A stretch of DNA of 64,000 bases from an uncultured Bacteroidia bacterium. Lineage in GTDB: Bacteria > Bacteroidota > Bacteroidia > Bacteroidales > UBA932. The translations under genes were made by a program, and so were the position numbers. How positions within the stretch are numbered: the first letter of the stretch is position 1; each line of letters opens with the position of its first letter. Shown piece after piece: positions 2,733-7,988 of the stretch. The notes under the pieces were generated by a model, which saw only the letters and a list, made by a program, of their open reading frames with translations, did not search any database and was not told where the DNA came from. The stretch covers positions 42,840 to 106,839 of the forward strand of contig CADBFO010000006.1 of the NCBI GenBank assembly GCA_902794005.1, read 5' to 3'.

Positions 2733-3644
2733 ATGCGACGAAGTCAGTTAATTGTTCCATTACTTATGATTCTCACTGTGTCGTCCTGCGGCATAGTGAG
2801 ATTTCGTAATGCTCCCACTTATCATGCGGGTCCTCCCTATCAGAAGGGCTACGAGCAAAAAGGATTCGTGGAAGAGATTGTTTACGACTGCAGCGTTCCC
2901 GGACCGTCGCAACGGCGCATGATTGTCTATCTCCCCCACGACTACTATCAGACGTCGAAAAGGTATCCGGTTTTCTACCTGCTTCATGGAGCCCGCGGTT
3001 ATGAAACCTCGTGGATCAGGAAGGGACGCGTGTATGAATCCACGGACAGCCTGGTGGCTGCCGGCCTGGCCGTTCCCTGCATCGTGGTAATGCCCAACGT
3101 GAACCAGTACAACGATGATGAGGATTTTGAAAACAGCCGGTTCAAGGATGCGTTCGAATCCATCTTCGAAGTGGACGGGACGGTGGAATACGCATTTGTC
3201 AAAGATGTGGTAATGCGGGTGGACAGCCTGTACCGGACCATACCGGACCGGAAACACAGAGCCATTGCAGGCCTCTCTATCGGCGGATACCAGAGCATCT
3301 ATTTCGGAGCCAACCATCCGGACGTATTCGGCTTTATCGGCGCGTTTTCTCCGTATATGTGGAGCATCGGCAAAGCCACCCCCTATCGCAGGGAGTTCTA
3401 CGGAAAGCTTCACGAAAGGATGGGGCTTCAATACGGGAACCTCCCCCCGGAAGGCTATTATCTCTATGCCGGCAAGTGGGACATCATGCGTCCTTCCACC
3501 CTCAAACTGCATTACTACATGACCCGCAAAGGGTATCGGCACGAATATACCCGCTTTCCGGGCTCGCACGACTGGAAGAACGGATGGATAGAGGAATACC
3601 AGGATATGCTGCAACGTGTTTTCAAACCCCAGGATCGACAATGA
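2733..3644 (+). CDS. Esterase D-type alpha/beta hydrolase lipoprotein
   Basis: A 303-aa protein with a lipoprotein signal: hydrophobic stretch, then LTVSSC with Cys at residue 19. The hydrolase core shows the early loop FYLLHGARG, the nucleophile elbow GLSIGG (Ser about 182) and a C-terminal GSHDW that supplies the histidine. This is the putative-esterase (Fes/esterase D/mycolyltransferase-like) family, often acting on acylated sugars or feruloyl groups. The substrate cannot be read. The stop overlaps the start of the next glycosyltransferase (ATGA), so the two are translationally coupled. Confidence 0.85.
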   Translation: MRRSQLIVPLLMILTVSSCGIVRFRNAPTYHAGPPYQKGYEQKGFVEEIVYDCSVPGPSQRRMIVYLPHDYYQTSKRYPVFYLLHGARGYETSWIRKGRVYESTDSLVAAGLAVPCIVVMPNVNQYNDDEDFENSRFKDAFESIFEVDGTVEYAFVKDVVMRVDSLYRTIPDRKHRAIAGLSIGGYQSIYFGANHPDVFGFIGAFSPYMWSIGKATPYRREFYGKLHERMGLQYGNLPPEGYYLYAGKWDIMRPSTLKLHYYMTRKGYRHEYTRFPGSHDWKNGWIEEYQDMLQRVFKPQDRQ

Positions 3645-4825
3645 AAATATTATTTGTACTCAATAGTTTTTTCGCAAGCGGAAATGGACTGTCCTCCTCG
3701 GCAAGAAGGACGGTGGCCTATCTCAAGCAGGCCGGGCACGATGTCCGTGTCATGTCCGGTCCCCATCCGAATGACCCGAAAACAGAGCCGGATTATCTCC
3801 TGAAAGAATACATCTTCCCCATTGTTCATCCCATCATCAAGGCCCAGGGCTATCATTTTGCCCAAAGCAATCTTCCCCTGATGGAAGAGGCCGCCCGCTG
3901 GGCCGATATCGTCCATCTTGAAGAGCCGTTCGTGATTGAGGACCGGATGCTGCACATCTGTGAGAGACTGGGAAAACCCGTCACGGCCACTTATCACCTG
4001 CATCCGGAAAACATCACCCATTCCCTGGGACCGCTGCGTCACTGGAAAGGCCTCAACCGGATCATTCTCCGTGCCTGGAGAAACCACACGTTCAACCACT
4101 GTGAATACGTACAGTGTCCCTCGGAGAATGTTCTGGACCGTCTGCGCCGCTATCATATCCATGCCAAACTGGAGCTTATCTCCAACGGGATCGTCCCGGA
4201 CAAGTGCATCCGGGAAGAGAATCCTCCCGAGGATTATGAAAAACCGGACCGTCCGCTGAAGCTGGTCTATATCGGCCGGCTCTCCAAGGAAAAAGATCAG
4301 ACGACGCTGCTGGAAGCCATGCGGCACAGCCATTTTGCAAAACGTATCCAGCTGCATTTTGCGGGCAAGGGCCCCTCGGAAAAAGCCCTCCGTCGCAAAG
4401 CCCGCAGGCTCGTCGAAGACGGTGTTCTCACCTACGAACCGGTCTTCACTTTCGAAAACAGCGACGGGCTGCGCGAACTGGCCGCCGGTGCCGACCTCTG
4501 CATCCACTGCGCCACTATCGAAGTGGAAGGGCTGTCCATCATGGAAGCCATGCAGCAGGGTGCCGTTCCCATCATCGCCCAAGGCCGATACAGCGGCACC
4601 GCACAGTTTGCCATCGACCGCCACTGTGTTTTCCCGGAAAGAAATCCGGAGGCGCTTGCCCACCGCATCGACTACTGGCTGTCCCATCCCGGCAAACGCT
4701 GGAAAACGGGCTGGGAATACGTCGAACACATGGAGAACTACGACATCCGGAAATCCGTCGAAAAACTGGTACAAATGTTCCGGAAGGCCATTGAACAGAA
4801 AAAAGGAAGCCAAGCAAGCATATAA
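3641..4825 (+). CDS. Glycosyltransferase family 4 (GT-B fold)
   Basis: A 394-aa protein starting MKILFVLNSFFASGNG. I chose the ATG at 3641 because it overlaps the previous stop (ATGA) and begins the Rossmann beta strand; the frame stays open upstream. The GT-B features are the N-terminal glycine-rich loop, the donor-domain strand LKLVYIGRLSKEKDQ, and a family-4 Ex7E motif near EVEGLSIMEAM. It transfers a sugar from an activated donor to an unknown acceptor. Two bases separate it from the HprK-like gene, tying it to the peptide-maturation-like block that follows. Confidence 0.88.
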   Translation: MKILFVLNSFFASGNGLSSSARRTVAYLKQAGHDVRVMSGPHPNDPKTEPDYLLKEYIFPIVHPIIKAQGYHFAQSNLPLMEEAARWADIVHLEEPFVIEDRMLHICERLGKPVTATYHLHPENITHSLGPLRHWKGLNRIILRAWRNHTFNHCEYVQCPSENVLDRLRRYHIHAKLELISNGIVPDKCIREENPPEDYEKPDRPLKLVYIGRLSKEKDQTTLLEAMRHSHFAKRIQLHFAGKGPSEKALRRKARRLVEDGVLTYEPVFTFENSDGLRELAAGADLCIHCATIEVEGLSIMEAMQQGAVPIIAQGRYSGTAQFAIDRHCVFPERNPEALAHRIDYWLSHPGKRWKTGWEYVEHMENYDIRKSVEKLVQMFRKAIEQKKGSQASI

Positions 4826-4827
4826 TC

Positions 4828-5688
4828 ATGCACGACATTCACTCATATCAAGTGGCCGGGTTCCGCTTCACCATAGAGGGGCCCCTGCCCTCCGTACCCA
4901 ACCTGACGCCGTTCCTGTCCGAAGAGGGGGAAAACCTCTTCCGTCTGGAACTGGTTTCCAGCATGGCCCCCGCCGTTTCCTCGCCCGTTTTCAAGACGGA
5001 AGACGGCCCCGGTTTCCCCGAGATTGCCATCGACACGCTGGAGGAAGGAGGATACCGCTTCCGCATGCGTCCCCTCCCCGGGAAACCCCTGGCGGCGGAA
5101 CTCCGCACCAGCCCCGATTTCACCCGGGCGCAGCTGCTCTTTCTGGGAGAAGACCATTCCTTCGCCCTGAATAATTCGCTCATGCTGCTGTTCGCTTTTG
5201 CATCGGCCTGTCACGGAGCGCTGGAAATGCATTCTTCCGTTGTCATGAACGAGGGAAAGGGATACCTTTTCCTGGGCAAGAGCGGAACCGGAAAGAGTAC
5301 CCACAGCAGCCTCTGGCTCAAGCACATCCCGGGAACGGAACTCCTGAACGACGACAATCCCATCCTCCGTCTGATGCCGGACGGGACCGCCCGCGTTTAC
5401 GGCTCTCCCTGGAGCGGAAAAACGCCCTGCTACAAAAATATGGAGGTTCCTGCGGGAGCCGTCGTGCGCATCCGCCAGGCTCCTTACAACAAAATAGAGC
5501 GTCTTTCCGGTATCCAGGCATACGCCTCCCTGATGGCGTCGGCCTCCTCCTTCCGCCCGTTCAAAGAACTGGCCGAAGGCTGGCACCGGACACTGGAGGG
5601 ACTGGTTGCGGTCCTCCCCTGCTATGTATTGGATTGCCTGCCCGATCAGGCCGCCGCAGAACTTTGTTACAAAACGGTCCATGGATAA
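4828..5688 (+). CDS. HprK-like serine kinase (HPr kinase C-terminal fold)
   Basis: A 286-aa protein. Residues 1-120 resemble the N-terminal part of the small HprK-related proteins found with PqqD proteins. Residues 130-200 carry the kinase core: EMHSS, Walker A GKSGTGKS at 150-157, an NDDNPI acidic segment at about 174-179, then GSPWSGKT. It lacks the full HPr kinase/phosphorylase layout, so HPr is not the likely target. Relatives in some lasso-peptide clusters phosphorylate the peptide. The next gene starts inside its last codons (8-base overlap). Family confidence is good; substrate is unknown. Confidence 0.82.
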   Translation: MHDIHSYQVAGFRFTIEGPLPSVPNLTPFLSEEGENLFRLELVSSMAPAVSSPVFKTEDGPGFPEIAIDTLEEGGYRFRMRPLPGKPLAAELRTSPDFTRAQLLFLGEDHSFALNNSLMLLFAFASACHGALEMHSSVVMNEGKGYLFLGKSGTGKSTHSSLWLKHIPGTELLNDDNPILRLMPDGTARVYGSPWSGKTPCYKNMEVPAGAVVRIRQAPYNKIERLSGIQAYASLMASASSFRPFKELAEGWHRTLEGLVAVLPCYVLDCLPDQAAAELCYKTVHG

Positions 5689-6100
5689 ACGAACCATCGC
5701 CAACGAGGTGTTGCTGGAAGACGCCGCAACCCTGATGAATGAAGGACGCGAGATTACGCTCACGCCCCTTGGCAACAGCATGCTTCCCTTTATCCGTGGC
5801 GGCAAGGATGCCGTGCGCCTGCGCAAGAACCCTTCCGTCTCCGTCGGAGACATCATCCTGGTCCGCCTCCCGGGCCGATATGTCCTGCACCGGCTCATCC
5901 GCATGGAAGGAGACCGTCTTACCCTCATGGGAGACGGGAACATCGCAGGAACGGAATCCTGCACGTCGGAAGACGTCCTGGGCACGGTGACGGCCATCCT
6001 GCGGGGAGGAAAAGAAATCAAGCCCGGGGACGGACGCCTATGGCGACGCCTCCTGCCTGTCAGAAGATATATTTTAGCCATTTACAGAAGACTGATATGA
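5681..6100 (+). CDS. S24/S26-type signal-peptidase-like protein with Ser/His residues
   Basis: A 139-aa protein beginning MDKRTIANEV. This start is preferred because it overlaps the kinase stop. The S26 core is visible: nucleophile motif GNSMLPF (Ser about 33), then GDIILVRLP, GRYVLHRLI (His about 70) and MGDGN. A histidine where bacterial type I signal peptidases have lysine is the SipW/Sec11 (ER-type) arrangement. There is no clear N-terminal membrane anchor, so it may act in the cytoplasm or at the membrane face on a leader peptide. It overlaps the PqqD gene by ATGA. Confidence 0.78.
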   Translation: MDKRTIANEVLLEDAATLMNEGREITLTPLGNSMLPFIRGGKDAVRLRKNPSVSVGDIILVRLPGRYVLHRLIRMEGDRLTLMGDGNIAGTESCTSEDVLGTVTAILRGGKEIKPGDGRLWRRLLPVRRYILAIYRRLI

Positions 6101-6366
6101 AAATCAAAGAAGGTTTTATTCTGCGCACCATCTGCGGAGAACATGTAGTTGTGGGCGAAGGCATCGCCCAGGTGAATTTCAACAAGATGCTGTCCCTGAA
6201 CGAATCCGCCGCCTATCTCTGGAAAGAGGCGGAGGGAAAGGAATTTACCCGCGAAACGCTTATCACGCTCCTGCTGGACAAGTATGACGTATCCCGGGAG
6301 CAAGCCGCCGAGGACGTAGATAAACTGGTCTGCACCTGGATTAAGGAAGGCGTAGTCTGCGAGTAA
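6097..6366 (+). CDS. PqqD-like peptide chaperone (RiPP recognition element)
   Basis: An 89-aa protein starting MKIKEGFILRTICGEHVVV. It has the PqqD fold pattern: N-terminal beta strands, a central VNFNKMLSLNESAAYLWK segment, and a C-terminal winged-helix-like part (LLDKYDVSREQAAEDVDKLV). PqqD proteins bind leader peptides of ribosomally made peptides and present them to modifying enzymes. The upstream in-frame extension is ignored because this ATG overlaps the previous stop. No precursor peptide gene fits in the gaps around it. Confidence 0.85.
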   Translation: MKIKEGFILRTICGEHVVVGEGIAQVNFNKMLSLNESAAYLWKEAEGKEFTRETLITLLLDKYDVSREQAAEDVDKLVCTWIKEGVVCE

Positions 6367-6368
6367 AC

Positions 6369-7988
6369 ATGAAGAGTTTCAAGGCATGCGTCAGGACCGT
6401 CTGGTCCCTTTCCCGCCCCGTGAGGTGGCGGGTGGCCGTCACCATCCTGGTGGGGGTGGTCCGCATCGCCGTATCCCTGAGTTTCGTCTGGGCGAGCAAA
6501 TACCTGGTCGATATCGCCACGCACGTCAAAACCGATCCGCTGGGTCCGGCCATCGGCCTTTTTATCGGAATCCTTGCCACCCAGCTGGCCGCCATCATCT
6601 TCGCCGGCTGGTGGGACAGTTACAACCAGGTGAAGGCACAGAATCTCTTCCGGAAAAGCCTCTTCGGCCATGTGCTCAAGAGCCGCTGGGACGGACGGGA
6701 GCGCTTCCTTTCCGGAGACACCGTCAACCGGCTGGAGGAAGACATCCGCGTGGTATCGGACCTTATCTGCGAACGCATCCCCGGGCTGGCCATCACCGTC
6801 GTGCAGCTGCTGGCCGCATCGGCCTACTTGCTGGTGCTGGCACCCAATCTGCTGTGGGTGCTCGTCATCCTGATGGGCGCCGCCGTCCTCGGATCCAAGA
6901 TGTTCTTTCGCCAGATTCGGAAACTCATGTCCCACATCCGCGCCCGGGAGAGTGAAATGCAGCAGCTCATGCAGGAAAGCCTGCAGCACCGGGTACTGGT
7001 CCTTACGCTCACCCATGTCGATCGCGTCCTGGAGAAATTCGGCTGGTTACAGGCCGATGTCGAGGGGAACACCCGCAAACGGCTCAACTACAACGCCGTC
7101 GCCCGCGGGCTCATGTTCCTCGGCTTCCAGGCAGGCCATGCCGCCGCCTTCCTATGGGGCATTTTCGGCATCCTGCACGGAACCGTCACCTACGGAACCA
7201 TGACGGCCTTCCTGCAGCTGGTTTCCCAGGTGCAGCGGCCCATTGCGGAATTCGGCCGGCAGATTCCGGCCTTCATCACAGCCCTCACCTCGGTGGAAAG
7301 GCTCATGGAACTGCTGGAACTGGAAGAGGAGCCCGTTTCTGACGCCATCCGGCTCAGCGGCGCCCCGGAAGTGACGGTCAGCCACCTTTCCTACCGCTAT
7401 CCGGACACTTCGGAGGAGGTGATCAAGGACTTCTCCTGCACCTTCCCCGCCGGCAGCCTCACTGCCATCGCCGGGCCTACCGGTATCGGGAAAAGCACCC
7501 TCATCCGCTTGGTTCTGGGTCTGCTGAAACCCTCGGAAGGCAGTGTCACCATTGGTGGGATTCCCGCTGGAAGCGCCCTGAGGGGCAATTTCATGTATAT
7601 TCCGCAAGGCAACTCTCTCCTGAGCGGCACCATCCGGAGCAATCTTCAGCTGGCAGCCCCGCAGGCCACCGAGCAGCAGATGTACGAAGCCCTCGAAACC
7701 GCCATGGCCGGCTTTGTACGTGATCTCCCCTCCGCTTTGGACACCCCCTGCGGAGAAATCGGAAGCGGACTCAGCGAGGGGCAGGCACAGCGCATCGCCA
7801 TCGCCCGGGCCCTCCTCCGCCCCGGCGGCATCCTCATCCTGGATGAAAGCACGTCGGCCCTGGACCCGTCCACCGAGCAAAGCCTGCTGGAGAACCTCCA
7901 CAGCCGTTATCACGGAAAGAAAACCATCCTCTTCATCTCCCACAGGGAGGCCGTGACAAAATATGCCGATCATATCGTCAACTTATAA
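6369..7988 (+). CDS. ABC transporter with fused permease and ATPase (peptide/lipid exporter type)
   Basis: A 539-aa half-transporter with six-helix membrane part in residues 1-310 and nucleotide-binding domain after about 335. Walker A is GPTGIGKST near 369-377, the signature LSEGQ near 468-472, and Walker B ILILDE near 488. It lacks an N-terminal C39 peptidase domain, so leader removal would have to come from another protein, such as the peptidase-like protein two genes upstream. It sits 2 bases after the PqqD gene. Such exporters act as homodimers; cargo is inferred from context only. Confidence 0.88.
   Translation: MKSFKACVRTVWSLSRPVRWRVAVTILVGVVRIAVSLSFVWASKYLVDIATHVKTDPLGPAIGLFIGILATQLAAIIFAGWWDSYNQVKAQNLFRKSLFGHVLKSRWDGRERFLSGDTVNRLEEDIRVVSDLICERIPGLAITVVQLLAASAYLLVLAPNLLWVLVILMGAAVLGSKMFFRQIRKLMSHIRARESEMQQLMQESLQHRVLVLTLTHVDRVLEKFGWLQADVEGNTRKRLNYNAVARGLMFLGFQAGHAAAFLWGIFGILHGTVTYGTMTAFLQLVSQVQRPIAEFGRQIPAFITALTSVERLMELLELEEEPVSDAIRLSGAPEVTVSHLSYRYPDTSEEVIKDFSCTFPAGSLTAIAGPTGIGKSTLIRLVLGLLKPSEGSVTIGGIPAGSALRGNFMYIPQGNSLLSGTIRSNLQLAAPQATEQQMYEALETAMAGFVRDLPSALDTPCGEIGSGLSEGQAQRIAIARALLRPGGILILDESTSALDPSTEQSLLENLHSRYHGKKTILFISHREAVTKYADHIVNL

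Follow-up and report, generated by a model that had tools for sequence, protein, structure and literature searches.

A four-gene block with the parts of a probable RiPP pathway

The window analyzed here is the whole 64,000-nt stretch taken from contig CADBFO010000006.1 of an uncultured Bacteroidales bacterium, whose genome assembly comprises 2.06 Mb in 57 contigs and is 89% complete. Near its start lies a block of four genes for a kinase, a peptidase, a PqqD-type protein and an ABC exporter, which a preliminary description had proposed to be a set for ribosomally synthesized and post-translationally modified peptides (RiPPs) with its precursor encoded elsewhere, or else a system acting on another substrate. 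The comparisons below refer to the linear polyphosphorylated peptide (LPP) system, which consists of the kinase LppK, the RiPP recognition element (RRE) LppB, the exporter LppD, the nucleotidyltransferase LppN and the precursor LppA, together with LppS, a SipW-like peptidase with S29, H68 and D93 (Popov et al. 2026, Nat Commun; PMC13381572). The genes of the block are as follows:

4828..5688, + strand: HprK/PEPCK-like kinase, LppK-like, 286 aa, with P-loop GKSGTGKSTH, LLNDD and GSPWSGKTPC
5681..6100, + strand: S24/S26 Ser/His peptidase of the SipW/archaeal signal peptidase type, LppS-like, 139 aa; candidate leader peptidase
6097..6366, + strand: PqqD-type discrete RRE, LppB/lasso-B1-like, 89 aa
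6369..7988, + strand: MsbA-like ABC exporter without a C39 peptidase, LppD-like, 539 aa

The genes had been described as four overlapping genes. The coordinates stood, and three of the genes do overlap: the open reading frames (ORFs) of the kinase and peptidase share 8 nt and those of the peptidase and PqqD, which starts at 6097, share 4 nt. The exporter only nearly touches: its start at 6369 leaves a gap of 2 nt after the end of PqqD at 6366. Because the genes overlap or touch, there is no space for a precursor inside the block, as had been claimed. A precursor adjoining the block was ruled out by these overlaps, a regular-expression (regex) scan and a profile scan.

PqqD matched Pfam PF05402 (E 2.8e-15). 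The peptidase matched PF00717 Peptidase_S24 over the cut-off (E 5.1e-6) and archaeal-type signal peptidase I weakly, under the cut-off. The exporter matched ABC_membrane and ABC_tran, and C39 was not among the listed matches, in agreement with the earlier claim that it lacks its own C39 peptidase. The kinase matched PEPCK_ATP and Hpr_kinase_C weakly, under their cut-offs; its AlphaFold2 model (pLDDT 93.5) found PEPCK and HprK as the best Foldseek fold matches, with low TM-scores of ~0.25-0.5. Weak profile matches and the pairing of kinase and PqqD are also shared with HprK-related kinase A and SynChlorMet ScmC and ScmD (NCBIfam), but the block scores far under those curated cut-offs.

The PqqD-type protein as a predicted leader binder

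The PqqD of the window is a discrete protein with a B1 fold and conserved residues, and it is predicted to bind YxxP. Its AlphaFold2 model (pLDDT 87.2) gave TbiB1 and TfuB1 as top Foldseek matches (TM ~0.73), and both structures were solved with bound leaders. The preliminary description had named the lack of a peptide-binding groove as a reason to reject a peptide role; the modeled protein, nearest to leader-bound TbiB1 and TfuB1, appears to possess one. Profile searches of Protein Data Bank (PDB) sequences reached TfuB1, PbaB1, TbiB1 and, weakly, LppB (entries 6jx3, 9x90 and 5v1u, and weakly 9x8z), along with a few chance matches. No match to PDB sequences was found by phmmer with the PqqD of a relative from the Dysgonamonadaceae (locus L070) or with the peptidase. 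Asn35 was conserved in 14/14 sequences and Asp73 in 13/14. By spacing and profile offsets, rather than by direct alignment to LppB, they sit at the positions expected for LppB N33 and D70, which in that protein keep the Pro kink and the Tyr in place (PMC13381572).

Conservation of the block among relatives

A scan with the kinase identified 42 relative loci, making 43 with the window. PqqD was found near the kinase on the same strand in 38/43 loci, the peptidase in 34/43 and the exporter in 28/43, and the full four-gene set was present in 28/43; several of the 43 stretches stop near the kinase, which limits these neighbor counts. The four genes are grouped more than chance would give. The relatives found by the kinase belong to the Bacteroidales, many from rumen or forestomach according to record titles, and the flanking genes differ between groups of loci. 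The P-loop, NDD and GxPWSGKTxCY residues of the kinase were invariant in a 12-sequence alignment, as were Ser33, Met34, His70, Arg71 and Asp85 of the peptidase in 14/14 sequences.

In one relative (L154:1716-3953), a Peptidase_S24 domain (13-108) is fused N-terminally to the exporter (ABC_membrane 177-450, ABC_tran 519-672). This fusion speaks for cleavage being coupled to export. A probable link between removal of the leader and export is a likeness to the peptidase-containing ABC exporters of the C39 type (PCATs), as is the placement of the peptidase at the exporter N terminus in L154. In contrast to PCATs, a serine S24/S26-type domain replaces the C39 cysteine protease, and in the window the peptidase has a gene of its own. 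L213 and L217 may carry the same fusion, judging from their gene calls.

Other arrangements were seen as well. In L059:6696-8867 and L063:6687-8873 (724 and 729 codons including the stop), the kinase shares an ORF with an upstream domain, possibly through a gene fusion; in L059 that domain is GcpE/IspG. Directly 5' of the kinase in L139 (9667-12539) lies a second PqqD gene, together with a radical-SAM gene and a similar-looking neighbor. L140 and L141 contain kinase relatives that lack PqqD in the stretches covered; these were set aside as looking like a different paralogue.

A family of YxxP peptides encoded away from the block

In L070, a 49-aa ORF lies 12 nt 5' of the kinase. A search with this peptide hit one place in the genome of the window (E 0.47), which contained a 46-aa ORF, and this ORF as query yielded two further copies. 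With a four-sequence profile, six family copies were found in the genome, on contigs C12, C7, C27, C31, C33 and C47, all with E <=1.1e-4 using a 37-row profile. The 64-kb window itself yielded no member in the regex and profile scans. A first precursor regex had returned mostly antisense or internal ORFs and was replaced by profiles. The search of the genome and its relatives for small peptides that had been recommended thus returned six genomic copies, along with copies directly 5' of the kinase in L070 and L147.

The peptides are ~40-60 aa long, with a YxxP leader, an acidic/hydrophobic stretch, a Ser and variable C-terminal parts. YxxP plus Ser at Tyr+19 was present in 51/68 non-redundant peptides and Ser at Tyr+20 in 16/68, with some having both; this conservation is partly built in, as the search profiles were made from mostly Ser-bearing peptides. 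The ORFs look protein-coding because dN was lower than dS in 4/4 diverged pairs with both rates (0.27/0.60, 0.41/0.96, 0.10/0.55 and 0.43/1.18), where the nine pairs compared were hand-picked and two of the four informative pairs share a member. Two other diverged pairs gave no dS estimate, and three near-identical pairs, differing by 1-2 bases (0/0.03, 0.008/0.03 and 0.008/0), held little information. The L070 peptide carries AQS at the place where the LppA core starts AQS. If cut three residues before the Ser, as happens in LppA, most cores would begin C-x-S or A-x-S.

Linkage of the peptides to the kinase genes

L070 and L147 share a single-strand order of peptide, kinase, peptidase, PqqD, nucleotidyltransferase and exporter. 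L147 comes from genome G078, of a different family from L070, and the two lineages are diverged. The nucleotidyltransferase is Pfam NTP_transf_5 in L070 and L146, and similar genes were recognized by eye in L147, L134 and L257. In L129, L146 and L149 too, peptides are close neighbors of kinase or PqqD genes; other loci have them at another place in the stretch. In total, 16 peptide matches fell in 12/87 kinase loci, the 87 being partly redundant, and the 12 include L140 and L141, where the kinase is present and PqqD absent from the stretches.

By reading and regex, a second class of small peptide, YxKP...ID..ISLIMMS, was found beside a weaker-scoring kinase in 7/16 loci (L207, L209, L210, L211, L212, L216 and L218), which are from other Bacteroidales families. 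PqqD was in the stretch for 6/7 of these peptide-bearing loci, with none seen in L209, and the loci mostly carry the peptidase as well as PqqD. In L157, a relative that also has a peptide of this class, the order is PqqD, peptide, kinase, peptidase and exporter.

Co-occurrence across Bacteroidales genomes

Co-occurrence was assessed in a sample of 198 Bacteroidales genomes, 9/198 of which contain the peptide family. Using cut-offs that were set after the score gap was seen (strong PqqD, E<1e-20; strong kinase, E<1e-60), peptides were found in 8/12 strong-PqqD genomes vs 1/186 others (Fisher 9e-11) and in 7/11 strong-kinase genomes vs 2/187 others (Fisher 5e-9). Peptides from two genomes, G000 and G078, were part of the search profile. 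Without these two, the split was 6/10 vs 1/186 for PqqD (2e-8) and 5/9 vs 2/187 for the kinase (1e-6). Genomes of the same family are not independent; the eight genomes with peptide and strong PqqD span six families (f1, f19, f38, f53, f102 and f107). Within the genus, the peptide (E<=0.01) was present in 41/49 kinase-positive vs 3/12 kinase-negative genomes (p 2e-4). Among the three kinase-negative, peptide-positive genomes, G032 does encode the PqqD type, while G007 and G010 are 61-63% complete, and PqqD was not found in them. Together with the YxxP family in the same genome and its operonic position in L070 and L147, the co-occurrence with PqqD supports the earlier proposal of a RiPP-type set whose precursor is encoded elsewhere.

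Pairing of the peptides with predicted fimbrillin-like lipoproteins

A downstream same-strand gene was available within the stretch for 64/68 non-redundant peptides and lay <=150 nt away in 60. A lipobox regex was passed by 46/60 of these close downstream genes vs 60/599 control genes. A wider regex gave 52 predicted lipoproteins, 51/52 of which share an N-terminal domain vs 0/67 control lipoproteins; because the 52 were themselves used to build the domain profile by iteration, 51/52 is partly by construction, and 0/67 serves as the control. By its consensus, the shared domain is the fimbrillin-like Mfa_like_1 (E 4.8e-11). Scanned one at a time, the lipoproteins mostly gave nothing in Pfam (6/8 without an informative match), and Mfa_like_1 emerged only through the shared-domain profile. 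The C-terminal modules vary, for example Lcl_C and BspA-type leucine-rich repeats. In the genome of the window, the next gene has a lipoprotein-like start for 5/5 copies with a downstream side available; the C33 neighbor was judged by reading only, and the copy on C47 lies where its contig ends.

One possible explanation is that the peptides are real genes but serve the fimbrillin-like lipoproteins as leader or regulatory ORFs rather than being substrates, the co-occurrence simply reflecting lineages in which both peptides and block are frequent. The close 3' position of a lipoprotein gene for most peptides fits this, as do the scarcity of peptides near the kinase (12/87 loci, two of which have the kinase without PqqD) and genome G210, which has a peptide and no detectable PqqD. 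Against it stand operons in two diverged lineages that begin with the peptide, co-occurrence that spans six families, and the motif itself, since lasso and LPP proteins of the PqqD type bind YxxP (PMC13381572, PMC12710340). We therefore regard this explanation as unlikely.

Surroundings of the block and a possible polysaccharide substrate

Two further genes precede the block on the same strand:

2733..3644, + strand: esterase of the PF00756 type, N terminus lipoprotein-like, 5' of the block; family in 21/43 loci
3641..4825, + strand: GT4-type glycosyltransferase, 2 nt 5' of the kinase; possible accessory; family in 12/43 loci, a minority

Also upstream and in the same direction are what we take to be a TPR-like gene and YebC, and downstream is presumably a SIS-domain gene. 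Esterase-family genes recur around the block among the relatives with changing positions and orientations. Neither the GT4 nor the esterase was accepted as a defining partner, since their families occur in only 12/43 and 21/43 loci and in varying positions.

The block could instead act on a non-peptide surface polymer, with the kinase and PqqD being part of polysaccharide assembly together with the adjoining glycosyltransferase. The GT4 gene just 5' of the kinase is consistent with this. So is the presence of some kinase relatives (L146, L149, L072 and L073) in capsule/polysaccharide-type loci that we take to be Wza/Wzc-like, with sugar transferase or NusG-like genes, and this placement counts against a peptide substrate. 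However, GT4 is found in just the 12/43 loci, PqqD has the fold of proteins that bind leaders, and the peptides tend to occur in genomes with PqqD, which makes a polymer substrate improbable. The capsule context is itself compatible with a peptide because LPP clusters are often embedded in capsule loci (PMC13381572). The preliminary description had raised the prospect that relatives of the block would always accompany a non-peptide substrate; this was not what was found, though some kinase relatives do lie in polysaccharide loci.

Within these loci, PqqD and a nucleotidyltransferase-like gene lie alongside the kinase in L146 and L149, where the genes beside the block are presumably Wza/Wzc-like, and the kinase follows a NusG-like gene in L072 and L073.

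Comparison with lasso peptide and LPP systems

Paeninodin-type lasso clusters resemble the block in having an HprK-like kinase, PqqD/B1, a Y/WxxP leader and an ABC exporter, and YxxP has been named as a lasso recognition motif (PMC12710340). For rumen bacteria, 85% of the putative lasso clusters that were complete were reported to include kinases, all in Firmicutes (PMC7533575). The block could belong to a lasso-peptide system with its cyclase and B2 encoded elsewhere and the YxxP peptides as lasso precursors, a view favored by the shared YxxP leader, PqqD/B1 and kinase and by a very weak match of the L070 peptide to NCBIfam lasso_PadeA_fam (E 0.12), as well as by one short Asn_synthase match in the genome that exceeds the family cut-off. 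No B2 (PF13471) was over the cut-off in the 89% complete genome, where one match of E 0.06 contained internal stops. Two partial Asn_synthase matches were found, covering 37/354 and 60/354 positions; the former was just over the family cut-off, and neither amounts to a full cyclase domain. In addition, an S26-type peptidase would fill the role of leader peptidase, as in LPP. A lasso system is therefore very unlikely.

The likeness to LPP is closer. The HprK-like kinase, discrete PqqD-type RRE, SipW-like Ser/His peptidase and MsbA-like exporter are all in the block, the block has no cyclase, and some members lie in polysaccharide loci. The Bacteroidales peptides have a YxxP leader, a Ser soon after the leader and a variable C-terminal core, as compared to the LppA leader YxxPxVLxHQxIxFETxxS, which is cut after T-1, with phosphates on S3 (PMC13381572). 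Differences from LPP include the host, which is Bacteroidales and not Bacillota, the dispersed precursors, mostly paired with fimbrillin-like lipoproteins, the usual position of the Ser (Tyr+19 here vs Tyr+18 in LPP) and the peptidase-exporter fusion of L154. The block was not filed as a strict LPP member because the window has no nucleotidyltransferase and no nearby precursor and because HQxIxFET is absent.

The discussion of the LPP paper gives the system as restricted to Bacillota and elsewhere calls the main peptidase cluster predominantly Bacillota; its main text does not contain "bacteroid" (PMC13381572). A study of Bacteroidales RiPP mining did not include the present gene set in the passages covered (PMC10352776). 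No recognizable description of the set in Bacteroidota was found in the literature searched, which was covered mostly at listing level and in main texts rather than supplements.

Discussion

Taken together, the four genes probably form a shared, LPP-like maturation and export unit in Bacteroidales whose precursors are encoded in trans. Comparison of sequences established the gene set, the peptide family, the operonic linkage in two relatives, the genome co-occurrence and the peptide-lipoprotein cassettes; by this reading, the proteins encoded in the window would probably act on members of the family. New here are the scatter of the precursors over the genome and their fimbrillin-like partners.

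In the proposed mechanism, PqqD would bind the YxxP leader of a ~40-60 aa precursor, as its fold, conserved residues and co-occurrence suggest. By analogy with LppK, the kinase would add one or more phosphates to the conserved Ser 19-20 residues past the Tyr. With PqqD presenting the leader to it, the Ser/His peptidase would then cut at a predicted site a few residues before that Ser, and the ABC exporter would carry the linear core over the inner membrane.

Several observations weigh against a shared unit acting on these peptides. Besides the post hoc cut-offs, the partly built-in conservation of the Ser and the relatives in capsule loci mentioned above, weaker-kinase genomes were not enriched for the peptide (1/17, p 0.56). 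In one genome, G032, the peptide search matched 23 times and the kinase search not at all; it encodes a PqqD of this type (E 7e-32; L254:7956-8222) that is isolated from kinase genes. Four of the 12 strong-PqqD genomes (G135, G143, G222 and G224) yielded no peptide at the E<=0.01 level. In G210 the peptide looks good, yet PqqD was not detected at E<=0.1. The window block lacks the nucleotidyltransferase of the LPP core and has no precursor in it or within 5 kb of it, in contrast to L070 and L147, and the Bacteroidales leaders keep YxxP and the Ser but not HQxIxFET.

Working with fimbrillin-like lipoproteins at the cell surface is, as we infer, the most likely role of the product. A more specific suggestion, which we put forward tentatively and consider somewhat less than an even bet, is that one phosphopeptide-maturation unit serves two-gene cassettes across the genome, each made of one precursor and one Mfa_like_1 lipoprotein whose C-terminal modules vary, and that the peptides, once phosphorylated and exported, are dedicated partners of the lipoproteins, as ligand, cap, donor strand or linker.

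If the shared unit is as proposed, LPP-type peptides would reach from Bacillota to a major gut phylum, and the question of where an orphan RiPP block has its precursors would have a possible answer. The findings suggest that a single enzyme set serves many precursors in scattered places, mostly linked to a lipoprotein gene, and such precursors would escape cluster mining that is limited to a few kilobases around the enzymes. The lipoprotein tie also hints at what such peptides may do, a function still unknown in the published system. If the cassettes are indeed served by this unit, it would be a RiPP pathway serving surface-adhesin biology in Bacteroidales and not one making a free natural product.

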